From NCBI GenBank assembly GCA_027487555.1, contig JAIYDI010000019.1, positions 124,001 to 188,000 on the forward strand: a stretch of 64,000 bases of DNA, read 5' to 3'. The stretch is from Hyphomicrobiales bacterium. GTDB lineage: Bacteria > Pseudomonadota > Alphaproteobacteria > Rhizobiales > Devosiaceae. Below, piece by piece: positions 29,465 to 38,737 of the stretch (positions are counted from its first letter, which is position 1; every line of letters starts with the position of its first letter). The position numbers and the translations under genes are program-made. The notes beneath the pieces are model-generated. The model saw nothing but the letters and a program-made list of their open reading frames with translations. It made no database searches and was not told where the DNA came from.

Positions 29465-29788
29465 TCAATCCTCGAACGACGAAGGCGCTTTTTCGTTCCT
29501 GGAATTGTGTTGGTCGATATGGCCGAGATCTCTGTCCGGGTCTATGCGGTCGCGCACGATCTGCTTGAGCGTCTTTACATCGGGGAAGCCGCCGTCACGC
29601 TTGCGCTCCCAGATCAGCTCCCCATCGATGCGGATTTCGAAGATCCCGCCGGAGCCGGGCAAGAGGGCGACGGAGCCGAGCTCGAGGCTGAAGGTCGAGA
29701 GCAGTTCCTGAGCCATCCACGCCGAACGCAGCAGCCAGTTGCATTGCGTGCAATAGGCGATACTGACGCCGGGCTTGGGCACGATCAT
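29465..29788 (-). CDS. SelT/SelW/SelH-like thioredoxin-fold protein (Cys form)
   Basis: This 107-residue protein starts with a beta strand and the redox motif YCTQCNW (Cys13 and Cys16); in selenoprotein W the second or first position is selenocysteine. The Rdx-family ending GGIFEIRIDGELIWERK is clear. It overlaps the following cNMP-binding gene by four bases (its ATG lies in that gene's stop), so the two are co-translated. A redox role is likely; partner unknown. Confidence 0.9.
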   Translation of the reverse strand: MIVPKPGVSIAYCTQCNWLLRSAWMAQELLSTFSLELGSVALLPGSGGIFEIRIDGELIWERKRDGGFPDVKTLKQIVRDRIDPDRDLGHIDQHNSRNEKAPSSFED

Positions 29789-30216
29789 ACCTGAGGGTCC
29801 GTCCAGGAGCGGAAAAGATTGCCGGGAAGCACCATGACTTCGTCTTCGCCGGCCACCTGCTCGCGGAGCTTGACCAGTTGCGCGGTGGTGGAATTGATCC
29901 GTTGGGCGAGCAGCCGCGCGATCTGCATGAGCCAGTTGGGATGCGCCTCGAGCACGGCAAGCGCATCGGTGATGACGAAGACCTGTACGTCGGTGACTGT
30001 GGTCACCGTCGCGGAATGCGGCTGGCCCAGCAGCACGGACATTTCGCCGAAAATGGCCCCTGACTGGCGAATGGACGCCACAAAGCGGCCATCGCGCTTG
30101 ACCTCGACTTCGCCCGACTTGAGAACGAACAAGGTGCCACCCGTTCCGCCCTGCTCGATGAGGTCCGTGCCGGCAGGGTAAAAGTCGAAGGTCAACCAGC
30201 TTTCGTCTTCGGCCAT
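29785..30216 (-). CDS. Stand-alone cyclic-nucleotide-binding-domain protein
   Basis: This 143-residue protein is essentially one cNMP-binding jelly-roll: GGTGGTLFVLKSGEVEVKRDG, then the phosphate-binding cassette area FGEMSVLLGQPHSATV with Glu, followed by a helical tail. There is no DNA-binding helix-turn-helix, unlike CRP. It is upstream of, and translationally coupled to, the SelW-like gene. A paralogue lies at 32989-33459. It may sense cAMP or another ligand and act through protein contact. Confidence 0.88.
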   Translation of the reverse strand: MAEDESWLTFDFYPAGTDLIEQGGTGGTLFVLKSGEVEVKRDGRFVASIRQSGAIFGEMSVLLGQPHSATVTTVTDVQVFVITDALAVLEAHPNWLMQIARLLAQRINSTTAQLVKLREQVAGEDEVMVLPGNLFRSWTDPQV

Positions 30217-32988: not shown

Positions 32989-33459
32989 CTATTCGTGGTC
33001 GGCCCAGCTACCCTTGCCCCTTTTTGGCGTCATGGAAATGGCACCGAGGATTCGCGTCATCAGCGCCTGCTGCTTGTCGGCGCCTTGCGACGCCGTGCGC
33101 AATTCGACAAGCAGCGCCGATGTGGCATCGAGCCGGGCGCAGGCGAGGGTGGCGATATGGAGCGCCAGCGCCGGATAGGAGGCGAGGGCCGTGCGCGCGT
33201 CGGACACGACCCGGACCGCCACCGGTGTCCGGGCGACGACATTGGCCGAATGCGGAATATCGAGCAGGGCCGCCATTTCGCCGATGATGGCGCCGCGTTC
33301 CTCCAGTGTGGCGAGTTCGACCCCGTCGCGCGTGACGGTGAGCGTGCCGGACTCAAGCAGGTAGAGCTGACCCGACCGGGTACCCGCCGTGGTGAGATAG
33401 GTTCCGGGAAGCAGTTTTTCCTGCGGCAGGCCAGAAAGCAGATCATCGAGCGCGGACAT
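32989..33459 (-). CDS. Second stand-alone cyclic-nucleotide-binding-domain protein
   Basis: This 156-residue protein has a cNMP-binding fold (GQLYLLESGTLTVTRDG, then IIGEMAALLDIPHSANV) and a helical C-terminus with no helix-turn-helix. It is a paralogue of the protein coded at 29785-30216. The start at 33459 (MSALDDLLSG) is taken because upstream residues are not family-like. It is convergent with the epimerase gene and divergent from the alcohol dehydrogenase gene. Confidence 0.85.
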   Translation of the reverse strand: MSALDDLLSGLPQEKLLPGTYLTTAGTRSGQLYLLESGTLTVTRDGVELATLEERGAIIGEMAALLDIPHSANVVARTPVAVRVVSDARTALASYPALALHIATLACARLDATSALLVELRTASQGADKQQALMTRILGAISMTPKRGKGSWADHE

Positions 33460-33701
33460 GGGCGATATCACAGGGGTTGCGGAAGTGGCAGGTGCAGACA
33501 GGCGGCAAGCGATGAGCATGGAGCGCATCCGCACCCGACGCAAGCGGCGACCCATGCGCTGTATACATCGCCAAATGTCGGAATTTGCATGCGCCACCTG
33601 CCTGTGCAAAGTCTCTGCGTGGGGTCACGCCGGGCTATCCCAAATCGTCCCGCCAGTGGCCCCATCCGCACAATACGCCCATTCAAAGCCGCGAGGATAA
33701 G

Positions 33702-34763
33702 ATGATCTCCGCCAAGGCCTACGCCGCCGCCACCGCCCGTGCCCCGCTTGCTCCCGTGTCGATTGCCCGGCGCGACCCGGCAGCGGACGAGGTGCTGATC
33801 GACATCCACTATTGCGGCATCTGCCACACCGACCTGCATTGTGCCCGCGACGAGTGGGGTGGTCAGCCCTTCCCCTGCATTCCCGGCCACGAGGTGGCGG
33901 GCGTGGTGCGCGCCGTGGGCAGCGCGGTGACGAAATACCAGGTCGGCGACCGGGTGGGCGTCGGCTGCATGGTCGATAGCTGCGGTACCTGCCCGGCCTG
34001 CTTGGCGGGGATCGAGCAGCATTGCGAGACCGGCACGGTGTGGACCTATGGCGCGCAAAGCGCCTATCGCCCGGGCGACCCGGGCACTGGCCACACACTG
34101 GGTGGCTATTCCTCGGCGATGACGGTGAAGGAGAACTTCGTCGTCAGGATCCCAGACAGCCTGCCGCTCGACCGCGCCGCGCCGATGCTGTGCGCCGGCA
34201 TCACCACCTATTCGCCGCTCAGGCGCTATGGCGCCGGCCCCGGCAAGCGCGTCGGCGTCATCGGGCTCGGTGGCCTTGGGCATATGGCGGTGAAGATCGC
34301 CCATGCCATGGGCGCCGAAGTCACCGTGATCACCACGTCGCCCGGCAAGGCCGCCGACGCCAGGGCGCTCGGCGCCGACAAGGTGCTCGTCTCCACCGAC
34401 AAGGCGCACATGCGCGAGGGCGCCGCGAGCCTCGATGTCATCATCGATACCGTCTCGGCAGAGCACGATATCGATATGTATATGCAACTCCTCCGCCTCG
34501 AAGGTGCGCTGGTGCTGGTCGGCCTGCCGCCCGAAAAGCTGAAGGTCACGGCCTTCACCCTTACCGGCGCCCGGCGCGTCTTCACCGGCTCCAATATCGG
34601 CGGCATTGGCGAAACCCAGGAGATGCTGGATTTCTGCGCCGCCCATGGCGTCATGGCGGATATCGAGATGATCCCCGCCACCGGGATCAACGCCGCCTAT
34701 GACCGGTTGTCGGCGGGCGATGTGAAGTACCGCTTCGTGATTGATTCGAAGACCCTGGGTTGA
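33702..34763 (+). CDS. Zinc-dependent NADP alcohol dehydrogenase (YahK/cinnamyl-alcohol type)
   Basis: This 353-residue medium-chain dehydrogenase has catalytic zinc residues in CGICHTDLH (Cys41) and IPGHE (His63), a structural zinc set CGTCPACLAGIEQHC, and the Rossmann motif GVIGLGGLGHMAV. It reduces aldehydes to alcohols with NADPH. The ATG at 33702 has GAGGA upstream. YahK-like enzymes act on a broad set of aldehydes. It is the last normal gene before the non-coding stretch that precedes the DUF262/HEPN unit. Confidence 0.94.
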   Translation: MISAKAYAAATARAPLAPVSIARRDPAADEVLIDIHYCGICHTDLHCARDEWGGQPFPCIPGHEVAGVVRAVGSAVTKYQVGDRVGVGCMVDSCGTCPACLAGIEQHCETGTVWTYGAQSAYRPGDPGTGHTLGGYSSAMTVKENFVVRIPDSLPLDRAAPMLCAGITTYSPLRRYGAGPGKRVGVIGLGGLGHMAVKIAHAMGAEVTVITTSPGKAADARALGADKVLVSTDKAHMREGAASLDVIIDTVSAEHDIDMYMQLLRLEGALVLVGLPPEKLKVTAFTLTGARRVFTGSNIGGIGETQEMLDFCAAHGVMADIEMIPATGINAAYDRLSAGDVKYRFVIDSKTLG

Positions 34764-35439: not shown

Positions 35440-36624
35440 ATGGCATTTGCACCGACAGAAGAAAAGATTTGGGAGAAGCTTCCCAAGGAGAAGGCTCCAG
35501 CGGTCACTGATAAGGAGATCAACGAACGCTACGCGAAAGGCGAAGGCAGGATCGTCATCGAGACTAACCGGGAAAAACTTCCCGGTTTCGTCGCTTCGCT
35601 CAAGACCGCAAACTACATGGATCTCAGACCCTTCTACCAGCGTCGCCCGCGCTGGTCGGCCGCGAAACAAAGCCTGCTGATCGAGTCCTTCATCATGAAT
35701 ATCCCGGTCCCGCCGGTGTTCCTCTACGAGCGAGAATACAACTCGTACGAGGTAATGGACGGACAGCAGCGCATCACGGCTCTCCGTGACTTCTACGATG
35801 GCAAGTTCGAGTTGGAGGGACTGAAGCAGTGGCCGGAAATCAACGGCCGCACCTATCAGACCCTCCCGGAAAATATCCATGCTGGGTTAGATCGCCGCTC
35901 GCTCACCTCCATCGTCCTCCTGAAGGAATCCACGTCTGACGAAGATGCTGCATCCAGCCTTCGGGAAACGGTATTTGAGCGACTGAACACGGGCGGCGTT
36001 GAGCTCACTAGGCAAGAGCTCCGCAATGCCCTCTATCGCGGCAAAATGAACAACCTAGTTGATCGCCTTTCTCGAAATGCAGCCTTCCGCAAGGCGTGGG
36101 GCATACCGTTGTACGTCGAGAATGAAATCGAGGTGACGAAAGGGCTGCTCGACATCCCGATGTTCGCCAAGATGGAAGACGTAGAGTTGGTTCTGCGCTT
36201 CTTCGCCTTGCGTCACGCCGACAACTTCCGCGGAGGCATGCAGGGCTTCCTCGACCTCTACATGCGGAAGGCACTAGCCTTCGATGACGCTGACCTCGCA
36301 GTTCTGGAGAAGGAGTTCAATGACACGCTTGCCTTGGTTGTCGCCGTCTACGGCGACCTGACTTTCAAGCCATATGACAAGGAGATCGATCAGTGGGCGG
36401 CCGGCGCCCAGAAGGCGTTCTACGATGCCGTGATGGTGGGCATGTCAGCGTTTCTTGGCCAGCAACAGCAGGTGGTCGACAAGAAGCAGTCGGTCGTCAC
36501 GGCAACCATCCAGATGTTCAAGGACCAGGACGATGGTACCTTCACCGGACGCGGCAATACGAAGGAAGACGTTCTGACCAGGATACGACTGTTCAAGGAG
36601 ATGATCGCCGGAGCTATCGCCTGA
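35440..36624 (+). CDS. DUF262 domain protein (ParB/Srx-like NTPase-type module)
   Basis: This 394-residue protein matches DUF262: RPFYQRRPRW (63-72), the signature EVMDGQQRITAL with DGQQR at 107-111, and FERLNTGGVELTRQELR around 184-200. The DGQQR motif is the ParB/sulfiredoxin-like nucleotide-binding site; in GmrS it powers a fused or partnered nuclease. No DUF1524 HNH domain follows here. It shares one base with the next gene (TGATG). Codon and base composition are poorer in GC than neighbouring genes. It is probably the regulatory or NTP-sensing half of a two-gene conflict system. Confidence 0.9.
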   Translation: MAFAPTEEKIWEKLPKEKAPAVTDKEINERYAKGEGRIVIETNREKLPGFVASLKTANYMDLRPFYQRRPRWSAAKQSLLIESFIMNIPVPPVFLYEREYNSYEVMDGQQRITALRDFYDGKFELEGLKQWPEINGRTYQTLPENIHAGLDRRSLTSIVLLKESTSDEDAASSLRETVFERLNTGGVELTRQELRNALYRGKMNNLVDRLSRNAAFRKAWGIPLYVENEIEVTKGLLDIPMFAKMEDVELVLRFFALRHADNFRGGMQGFLDLYMRKALAFDDADLAVLEKEFNDTLALVVAVYGDLTFKPYDKEIDQWAAGAQKAFYDAVMVGMSAFLGQQQQVVDKKQSVVTATIQMFKDQDDGTFTGRGNTKEDVLTRIRLFKEMIAGAIA

Positions 36625-37655
36625 TGCACACCGCTCTCCTTGACCGAAGCCTCGAGGCGTTTGCCGCCGTTCGCAAGCATGTATCGTTTTCGGCGAACCT
36701 TCGAGATCAGGTCGCGCAGCCATCCTTTGGATGCAAAGCCGAGGGTGAGAAATGTTTCGACATCAGCGCCATCTTGGGTGAAGCAGCAGATGCGACCAGT
36801 TGGCGAGTTATTGATCACTGCGCCGCGATCACCCGAACGTATGCGCTCTTCGAGTCTTTCGTCCTCCAACTACTACGCGAATATCTCCTCTTCCTGTCGG
36901 GCGCGTACACGCTGACGGCTCTGGGTCCAGAATTCAAGGCTAAGTACACGCGCGGTCTTGGGCAGATCATGCTCGACCAAGACAAGCAGCGCTACAGCTA
37001 CATCGATATCACTAAGCTAATTGCCGGTGCAAACGAGGCATTAACGGATGGCGCCGGCTACCAGATCCAGCCAGAGGCCCTGTTGCGCAATGAGCAGAAC
37101 CTGCGGATGACCGAATTGCACCGCCTCTTCAGTCAATGCGGGCTAACCAACGTCGAGGCCTGGGTGACGTCGCACTCCGTCGTGGCAGATTTTTTCAAGG
37201 ATCAATCGCGACTTTCGGAAACGGCAGAAAGCGAGCTGCGCCAGATCGTTGATTACAGGAATGCGGCCGCCCACGGCGACGTCGACGAAGTGCTTGGGGT
37301 TGAGGTGTTGGTTGAGTTTACCGAATTCATGGAGGCTCTGTGTCTGAGCATCGTTGATTTCATTCAGTACGACACATTACGGCGAGCGAAGGAACTAGGA
37401 AGAGCTACCGTGGTCGGCCACATCTCGGAGAGGTACCACGATGACATCATCGTCGCAAAAATCACTAATGCCACCCTCGCCGTCGGAGACTCGCTCTACG
37501 TCTTCGGTAAAGGGCTCACGATGACGGCCGAGGTGAGGAGCATTCAGCTCGACGACGTAGACGTCGCGGCGGCGACGGTTGTTGACGAAACCGAAGTCGG
37601 TCTTCGCATTGGGGTCCGTGCGAAAGTCGGATGCGAACTCCTCAGGCTCAACTGA
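36624..37655 (+). CDS. HEPN-type RNase candidate with EF-Tu domain-2-like C-terminal barrel
   Basis: This 343-residue protein is mainly helical to residue 255 and contains the HEPN active-site motif RNAAAH (Arg212 to His217, Rx4H) in VDYRNAAAHGDV. It resembles the MAE_28990/MAE_18760 (RiboL-PSP-HEPN) nucleases I know from defence contexts. Residues about 260-341 look like a beta-barrel of the EF-Tu domain-2 type: VGHISERYHDDIIVAKI, LAVGDSLYVFGKG, VRSIQLDDVDV and TEVGLRIGVRAKVG. The start overlaps the DUF262 stop, so the pair is translationally coupled. A sample from inside it (36961-37020) has 29 G/C of 60, against 39 of 60 at 38461-38520. I infer an RNA-cleaving effector controlled by the DUF262 partner, possibly aimed at tRNA or ribosome. 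Confidence 0.75.
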   Translation: MHTALLDRSLEAFAAVRKHVSFSANLRDQVAQPSFGCKAEGEKCFDISAILGEAADATSWRVIDHCAAITRTYALFESFVLQLLREYLLFLSGAYTLTALGPEFKAKYTRGLGQIMLDQDKQRYSYIDITKLIAGANEALTDGAGYQIQPEALLRNEQNLRMTELHRLFSQCGLTNVEAWVTSHSVVADFFKDQSRLSETAESELRQIVDYRNAAAHGDVDEVLGVEVLVEFTEFMEALCLSIVDFIQYDTLRRAKELGRATVVGHISERYHDDIIVAKITNATLAVGDSLYVFGKGLTMTAEVRSIQLDDVDVAAATVVDETEVGLRIGVRAKVGCELLRLN

Positions 37656-37825: not shown

Positions 37826-38737
37826 ATGGGCCATGCCGTTTTCATCCATCGTGCGGATTCGATCTATGACGATAGCCCGGCGGTGCAGTACCAGTTCCCG
37901 CGGCAATATCTCGGCCGCGCGCAGCAGGCGGTTGGCGACTGGATCGTCTACTACGAGCCAACCAAGGTGGCCCTCTCACGCGGGTATTTCGCCACGGCGA
38001 AGGTGCGGCAGATCATACCCGACCCCAAGGCCAGCGGCATGTATCTGGCGCTGATCGAGCCGGACTCGTTCCTCGAATTTGCCAATGCCGTGCCCTTCAA
38101 GGCCGAGGATGGGCTGATCGAGCGGGGCCTCGTCAATGCCGATGGCAAGGTTTCGGGCTGGGCGCAGGCCGCGGTGCGGCAGCTTGCGGGCAGCGACTTC
38201 AAGCGCATCATCGAGCGCGGGCTGGCCGATGATCAGCCGATCCTGCCGCGGGTCGACGAGATTGCGGCGCCGCAGCTGCCCTATCTCGAGGCCGACGATG
38301 AACAGGTGCCGTTCGAATATGAAGTCGAGCGGGTGCGAACTGAAATGCTCACCTCCCGGATCGTGCGGGACCGGGTGTTCCGAAAACTCGTGCTCCGGGC
38401 CTATGACGCGCGCTGCGCGGTGACGGGCATCAAGCTGATCAATGGCGGCGGCCGGGCGGAGGTGGATGCGGCCCATATCCGCCCCGTCGAGTTTGGCGGG
38501 CCCGATATCGTCAACAACGGCATGGCCCTGTCGGGCACGGCGCACTGGATGTTCGATCGCGGCCTGATCGGCATCGCCGATGACCTGAGCATTGTCGTAT
38601 CGCGCCACGTGAACGACCGCGACAGTGTCGACGCGCTGATCAACCGCACGGGCAAGCTGATCGGCCCTGGCGATCCGCGCGGCCGCCCGCACCCTGTGTT
38701 CCTCGCCTGGCACAGAGAGAACTGCTTCAAGCAGTGA
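37826..38737 (+). CDS. HNH endonuclease family protein
   Basis: This 303-residue protein has a C-terminal HNH nuclease: Cys in DARCAVTG, AAHIRPVEFGGPD (His), NNGMAL (Asn) and HWMFDRGL (His), about residues 195-255. The N-terminal 150 residues look like a modified-base or PUA/ASCH-like reader but I cannot assign them. Composition is GC-rich like the chromosome, unlike the two genes before it, and homologues are common in this order without the DUF262 pair, so it may be a native neighbour rather than part of the module. There are 170 bases between it and the HEPN gene. Confidence 0.85.
   Translation: MGHAVFIHRADSIYDDSPAVQYQFPRQYLGRAQQAVGDWIVYYEPTKVALSRGYFATAKVRQIIPDPKASGMYLALIEPDSFLEFANAVPFKAEDGLIERGLVNADGKVSGWAQAAVRQLAGSDFKRIIERGLADDQPILPRVDEIAAPQLPYLEADDEQVPFEYEVERVRTEMLTSRIVRDRVFRKLVLRAYDARCAVTGIKLINGGGRAEVDAAHIRPVEFGGPDIVNNGMALSGTAHWMFDRGLIGIADDLSIVVSRHVNDRDSVDALINRTGKLIGPGDPRGRPHPVFLAWHRENCFKQ

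Follow-up and report, generated by a model that had tools for sequence, protein, structure and literature searches.

Proteins of the DUF262 family that carry the DGQQR motif act as NTPase modules controlling a nuclease in GmrSD, BrxU, and SspE (PMC10952713). The system PD-T4-2 is composed of a DUF262 protein and an HEPN protein of Pfam family PF18735 (PMC10952713). Its deletion from the native strain allows T4 to form plaques, and transfer of the system to E. coli K-12 confers protection there as well (Vassallo et al. 2022; PMC9519451). No mechanism for PD-T4-2 was found in the available text of the open-access literature on the system. HEPN domains are regarded for the most part as RNases (PMC3710099, 2013). 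In the same source, operons with a ParB nuclease gene and DNA methylase genes are described for the HEPN family MAE_28990, and "a novel beta rich domain" is given as the fusion partner of the HEPN family MAE_18760. Type III-A CoCoNuTs are multi-gene, McrB/McrC-based systems in which an EF-Tu-like fold is found in CnuH and not on the HEPN protein (PMC11090510). DUF262 and EF-Tu are not mentioned in the available text of a BREX paper (PMC12839542).

A DUF262-HEPN gene pair was analyzed in the draft genome of a member of the Devosiaceae (4.53 Mb, 52 contigs). The window, meaning the whole 64,000-nucleotide stretch analyzed, covers positions 124,001–188,000 of contig JAIYDI010000019.1. A preliminary description had presented the pair as an undescribed system, a claim that does not stand, as PD-T4-2 (DUF262 with HEPN) and MAE_28990 with its ParB operon were already in print. 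DUF262-HEPN pairs are known, including the experimentally shown anti-phage system PD-T4-2, and the window pair is a barrel-bearing variant of this kind. Computation established which domains the proteins contain, that the two genes are almost always paired and are inherited together, that the barrel fold is present, and that the pair is patchily distributed. The pair is read, with moderate confidence, as a horizontally acquired two-gene DUF262-HEPN conflict module encoding a gated RNase, a relative of PD-T4-2 within a barrel-bearing clade.

Domains and motifs of the two proteins

The first gene (35440–36624, + strand) encodes a 394-aa DUF262 protein. It matches GmrSD_N (DUF262) at 89.1 bits (cut-off 33.2, E 5.4e-25) and carries MDGQQR, in agreement with the preliminary description of a DUF262 protein with DGQQR. 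DGQQR occupies residues 107–111 (35758–35772, + strand). D107, G108, Q110, and R111 are invariant across the 49 DUF262 rows of alignment A7, from which 22 of 71 rows were removed by hand and the plasmid rows L004 and L005 are absent. Across 73 DUF262 rows, the motif is spelled MDGQQR in 62, MDGLQR in 4, IDGQQR in 3, and MDGRQR in 2, and the pattern lies elsewhere in 2. PADLOC matches were obtained to NsnA (4.8e-64) and PD-T4-2_A (PDLC04027; 5.4e-32). The structure model has a pLDDT of 87.7, and its PDB matches, led by BrxU (E 6.3e-3) and followed by ParB-like CTPases, are all weak (E 6e-3 or worse). By analogy, the DUF262 protein is likely an NTP-dependent sensor or gate.

The DUF262 stop codon TGA (36622–36624) and the ATG of the HEPN gene (36624–36626) have one A in common. 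The two genes are predicted to be translationally coupled through this TGATG overlap (36622–36626, + strand), as had been proposed. A longer alternative, mechanically called ORF for the HEPN gene runs from 36393. Because M occupies column 1 in 94% of aligned HEPN-barrel relatives, 36624 is likely the true start rather than 36393.

The second gene (36624–37655, + strand) encodes a 343-aa protein that exceeds the cut-offs of two Pfam HEPN families, HEPN_RiboL-PSP (PF18735; 46.4 bits, cut-off 28.4, E 5.6e-12) and HEPN_MAE_28990 (PF18737; 40.4 bits, cut-off 26.8, E 4.8e-10). At E 0.01, PF18735 is matched by 70 and PF18737 by 68 of 71 aligned relatives. The hallmark of HEPN domains is an Rx4-6H motif at the end of a helix. 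RNAAAH (residues 212–217; 37257–37274, + strand) lies at the end of helix 201–216 in the AlphaFold2 model, and R212, N213, and H217 do not vary in alignments A2 (73 rows) and A3 (71 rows). Alignment A2 was drawn from partner ORFs of 320–400 aa, with those outside that range omitted and 72 kept; plasmid rows L004 and L005 are included in A2 and absent from A3. The Rx4H motif is as previously noted, and the refuting case of a motif lying outside a helix did not arise. No HEPN chain was among the 50 PDB matches listed by Foldseek for the HEPN-barrel model; the HEPN assignment accordingly draws on Pfam and on the three invariant residues (R, N, H). The HEPN-barrel profile gave two matches among PDB sequences, each at E 0.8. 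By analogy with other HEPN proteins, the HEPN-barrel protein is likely an RNase effector. The 543-aa partner in a Candidatus Sulfopaludibacter locus is an HEPN-barrel protein with a long extra C-terminal part.

The AlphaFold2 model of the HEPN-barrel protein, made from a 71-sequence alignment, has a mean pLDDT of 92.0 and a pTM of 0.88. Helices extend up to residue 257 and are followed by ten strands in residues 261–342 (37404–37649, + strand), a fold assigned to translation-factor domain 2 from the model and Foldseek. The top PDB match was 4he5, the C-terminal domain of a U32 peptidase (E 3.2e-4, TM 0.78 by target length, rmsd 2.1, 83 columns), followed by EF-Tu, IF2, Pbp11, eIF5B, and EF1A. 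Whole translation factors give high rmsd because alignments extend into their other domains, and small targets are the fair test. In the viral library, the top rows were mainly giant-virus translation GTPases. The barrel is thus modeled as EF-Tu domain-2-like with the U32 domain as its best-scoring solved match, which bears out the proposal that about 80 C-terminal residues resemble that domain. The U32 C-terminal domain and domain 2 of EF-Tu and IF2 are the same small barrel, joined in the window protein to a predicted RNase.

No Pfam match covers the barrel of the window protein at E 0.01. Using hhalign against the LepA of the window, it was aligned to LepA residues 197–242, presumably domain 2 (E 0.008, probability 4.9%). 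Over 73 rows the barrel has a median net charge of 0, and the window copy one of -3, which makes it neutral to acidic and not basic. The barrel fusion had been singled out as the apparently undescribed feature. A search of open-access literature found no paper identifying the barrel. The fusion proved to be usual among the closest relatives of the pair.

Relation to described systems

The pair fits the broad DUF262-HEPN kind, with the HEPN gene directly after the DUF262 gene on the same strand and the TGATG overlap. It resembles PD-T4-2 in having two genes, DUF262 then HEPN, and in the match to PD-T4-2_A, although NsnA scores higher. The window HEPN protein has no match to PD-T4-2_B (PDLC04028, 168 positions) at E up to 1, and none was found in the genome at 0.001. 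Among HEPN-barrel relatives, 1 of 71 matches, at 0.0075. Because the PD-T4-2_B model has 168 positions, its members have no room for a barrel, and the model is narrow, since six short plasmid HEPN partners fail it too.

Likeness to MAE_28990 includes the PF18737 score above cut-off, with PF18735 higher, and the ParB-type operon partner reported for that family. The window pair differs in its adjoining genes, which are alcohol-dehydrogenase-like and HNH genes with no methylase, whereas the related Tabrizicola pair has a methylase. The available text of PMC3710099 describes the beta-rich fusion for MAE_18760 and, for the other family, MAE_28990, the operon with ParB. Two barrel-bearing partners, from Shewanella and Tabrizicola, are named "MAE_28990/MAE_18760 family HEPN-like nuclease" by NCBI.

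The PADLOC system Nsn (NsnA/NsnB) is presumably Menshen. The window DUF262 protein is of the NsnA type, but its partner is an HEPN protein and not the NsnB ATPase seen in locus L007. Menshen was rejected, as neither the HEPN protein nor the HNH protein of the window matches NsnB. GmrSD, BrxU, and SspE resemble the pair in GmrSD_N and DGQQR, with BrxU as the best, weak, PDB match. GmrSD was rejected because a DUF1524/HNH nuclease domain is found in neither protein of the pair (Pfam, E up to 1).

Pairing, distribution, and neighboring genes

A genome scan with the DUF262 alignment returned 482 relatives, and the best 80 were taken as loci. HEPN and barrel lie just downstream of DUF262 in 73 of these best 80. 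The other seven are near a contig edge (L036, L047, L068, L076), have a broken HEPN gene (L026, L088), or have none (L063). Of the 80, 64 match by construction because the HEPN and barrel profiles were built from alignment A3, which holds those 64; the barrel was matched also in 9 of the 80 outside A3 and in L003–L005, with no match in L006 and L008–L015. Searching from the HEPN side, DUF262 was found upstream on the same strand in 38 of 39 loci, the 39th being the second piece of a split gene. The barrel profile matched in 35 of these 39 loci, some of which coincide with the DUF262-side set.

Relatives of the pair are located on conjugative plasmids and IMG/VR contigs. The barrel is present in all six of the IMG/VR loci L105–L110, and a short HEPN without barrel in all eight of L008–L015. 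Eleven plasmid loci comprise three with HEPN and barrel, six with an HEPN protein of 180–261 aa, and two with a DUF3696 ATPase, with an NsnB match in one case. The HEPN-barrel gene of a Nostoc plasmid is split across two frames. The barrel is not a local oddity and is the usual architecture among the closest relatives.

The DUF262 tree was built from 44 hand-picked rows; the distant DUF262 proteins L016–L018 were not used. All 29 barrel-associated rows fall on one side of a single branch (support 96/90), eight other rows are long branches of unsure position, and phyla are intermixed. DUF262 and HEPN distances co-vary over 73 loci (r 0.94), and 1000 shuffles reach at most 0.25. Distance correlations among DUF262, HEPN, and barrel over these loci are 0.94, 0.90, and 0.93 (largest of 1000 shuffles 0.25–0.27), and therefore the parts of the pair are inherited together. 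After allowing for the remaining protein, the tie between DUF262 and barrel distances is 0.19, no stronger than for other segments (0.07–0.43). The HEPN gene is broken in 10 of 76 DUF262-side loci and DUF262 is shortened in 1 of 36 HEPN-side loci, a difference that is not significant (p 0.10) between sets gathered differently. Coverage is <0.9 in 12 of the 76 loci; two of these, L090 and L094, seem intact and did not count as broken. Two HEPN-barrel genes occur in some cyanobacterial genomes (L132 and L138 in G523; G992, G999), scoring ~1e-130 to 1e-150 and ~1e-52 to 1e-56. As each two-copy genome holds one high- and one low-scoring gene, this points to two putative HEPN-barrel sub-families in cyanobacteria.

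The pair has a GC content of 56.1% against 63.2% for the window, which is 2.6 SD low and ranks 2 of 248 same-length windows. The earlier counts of 29/60 at 36961–37020 and 39/60 at 38461–38520 were reproduced. The HEPN protein occurs in 1 of 136 Devosiaceae genomes, its own, and in 0 of 18 other genomes of the genus. It is present in 1 of 385 genomes at class level, by single sequence and by profile alike, and in 3 of 398 at phylum level, one of which matches the HEPN part only. As a lone query, it found nothing beyond its own genome among plasmids, IMG/VR, family, and class; the DUF262 protein was the better query for finding related loci. Among the best 80 of 482, the nearest DUF262 proteins come from Bradyrhizobium and Aurantimonas (74%) and Pelagibius (69%). 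One Nostoc (cyanobacterial) family has a match in 44 of 192 genomes, a few of these being fragments, some with two copies, and some with in-frame stops. Seven congeneric stretches surrounding relatives of the HNH gene show neither DUF262 nor HEPN; one of them, L129, covers only 158 bases on the relevant side. Where the window has the pair, the congeneric stretches L126 and L128 have a CRP-like gene immediately next to HNH. The pair was acquired horizontally here, and the transfer first suggested by low GC is upheld.

An alcohol-dehydrogenase-like gene (33585–34763, + strand), recognized from sequence, lies before the pair and has its closest relatives in the genus at 79% and 76%. This gene may also be a local addition, because none of the other genes tested in this region recurs in the stretches around those congeneric relatives. 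Just behind the pair is an HNH_2 gene (37826–38737, + strand; Pfam and NCBIfam), which scores 103.5 bits against NCBIfam NF045808 (phosphorothioated-DNA-binding restriction endonucleases), under the cut-off of 180. Relatives with 63–70% identity are held by 7 of 18 other genomes of the genus, so the HNH gene has probably been resident here longer than the pair. Two CRP-like (cyclic-nucleotide-binding) genes in the window (29785–30216 and 32989–33609, both - strand) are related and match the same congeneric CRP-like genes adjoining lepA and HNH. No DNA methylase gene lies directly beside the window pair. DNA methylase genes were observed just upstream of DUF262-HEPN pairs on a Tabrizicola plasmid (L005:1192–3318) and a Bradyrhizobium 62B plasmid (L021:432–2081), in line with the MAE_28990 operons (PMC3710099).

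A genome survey for the same pair near other defense genes, suggested in the preliminary description, found such neighbors seldom. In the flanks of the best 80 loci, the commonest PADLOC family occurs in 3 of 132 nearest ORFs (E up to 1e-20), and the commonest Pfam matches are sulfite reductase domains (5 of 132) and signaling domains. These ORFs are mechanical and not gene calls, and 13 of 145 were excluded for length (>700 aa). Fifty other ORFs of the window gave one PADLOC match each to DrmD (1e-38) and mad3 (5.9e-30), which may be ordinary helicase or ATPase genes. A defense-island setting is not supported, as the neighbors of relatives, taken with no matched control, are mostly metabolic or signaling genes. 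The pair is more aptly seen as a mobile module unattached to defense islands.

Proposed function and alternatives

A gated RNase acting on infection is the best reading by analogy, because DUF262 gates nucleases, HEPN proteins are mostly RNases, and PD-T4-2 protects from T4. The DUF262 protein would bind NTPs through DGQQR and keep the HEPN RNase off until a phage or some other intruder gives a signal. Probably as a dimer, the HEPN protein would then cut cellular RNA, and translation and phage growth would stop. A DUF262 gate with an HEPN effector, as originally suggested, is supported as the likeliest architecture. Points against the module reading are the missing match to the PD-T4-2_B model, the few defense neighbors, the neutral to acidic barrel, the barrel-free sister pairs, and the absence of HEPN chains among the listed PDB matches.

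In known proteins, the barrel fold is joined to RNA-modifying enzymes or GTPases and occurs in holders of tRNA or modifiers of RNA. This suggests by analogy that the barrel directs the RNase to translation, and, with less weight, that a fold like that of EF-Tu, IF2, and U32 would take it to tRNA or the ribosome. The preliminary description had further named EF-Tu-binding partners as a possible target. A widespread clade of DUF262-gated HEPN RNases, with the barrel as an aiming part that grips aminoacyl-tRNA ends or the ribosome as in EF-Tu/IF2 and cuts there on infection, is put forward tentatively and is somewhat unlikely. The neutral charge and the barrel-free sister pairs speak against an easy RNA-binding role, and the barrel may serve to dock the RNase on either translation RNA or a partner protein. 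A serious rival, possible though short of an even chance, is a docking or oligomerization domain that holds the HEPN protein to DUF262 or to another copy and relays an NTP-driven switch, leaving the choice of RNA to HEPN. The median net charge of 0 and the co-varying barrel and DUF262 distances (r 0.90) agree with docking, but short HEPN proteins pair with DUF262 without a barrel in 8 of 8 IMG/VR loci and 6 of 11 plasmid loci.

The near-constant pairing, the plasmid-borne relatives, and the scarcity of defense genes beside them would also suit a toxin-antitoxin-like maintenance module, in which the RNase is neutralized by DUF262 and addiction, not phage defense, keeps the pair in place. The excess of broken HEPN genes over shortened DUF262 genes leans the same way without reaching significance (10/76 vs 1/36). 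This reading is unlikely, as DUF262 partners in known systems are NTPase gates and not plain antitoxins (PMC10952713) and PD-T4-2 defends (PMC9519451). Quite unlikely is type IV-like restriction, with DUF262 reading modified DNA and HEPN acting at the same place or on its transcripts. The DUF262 proteins of GmrSD, BrxU, and SspE sense modified DNA (PMC10952713) and the Tabrizicola and Bradyrhizobium 62B pairs have methylase genes beside them, but Pfam found no HNH or other DNase domain in the window pair, which also lacks a directly adjoining methylase gene. Relatives often lie among metabolic genes, as a vertically inherited core housekeeping pair would. That reading is highly improbable and was rejected on the distribution of the pair, with a single occurrence among 136 family genomes, 0 of 18 other genus genomes, 44 of 192 in the Nostoc family, and no sign of it in the seven congeneric stretches; the low GC and the mixed phyla of the DUF262 tree also speak against it.

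The interest lies in the barrel-bearing group and not in the pair itself. Part of a family so far named just "HEPN-like nuclease", which is common in cyanobacteria and occurs here and there in other phyla, can now be treated as a defined module whose aiming part is open to testing. PD-T4-2-like systems gain a sister clade in which one domain can be read. Should the choice of RNA target lie with the barrel, killing and targeting would be pulled apart by a single deletion. If the aiming reading is true, a defense class would be defined by a domain common to translation factors.
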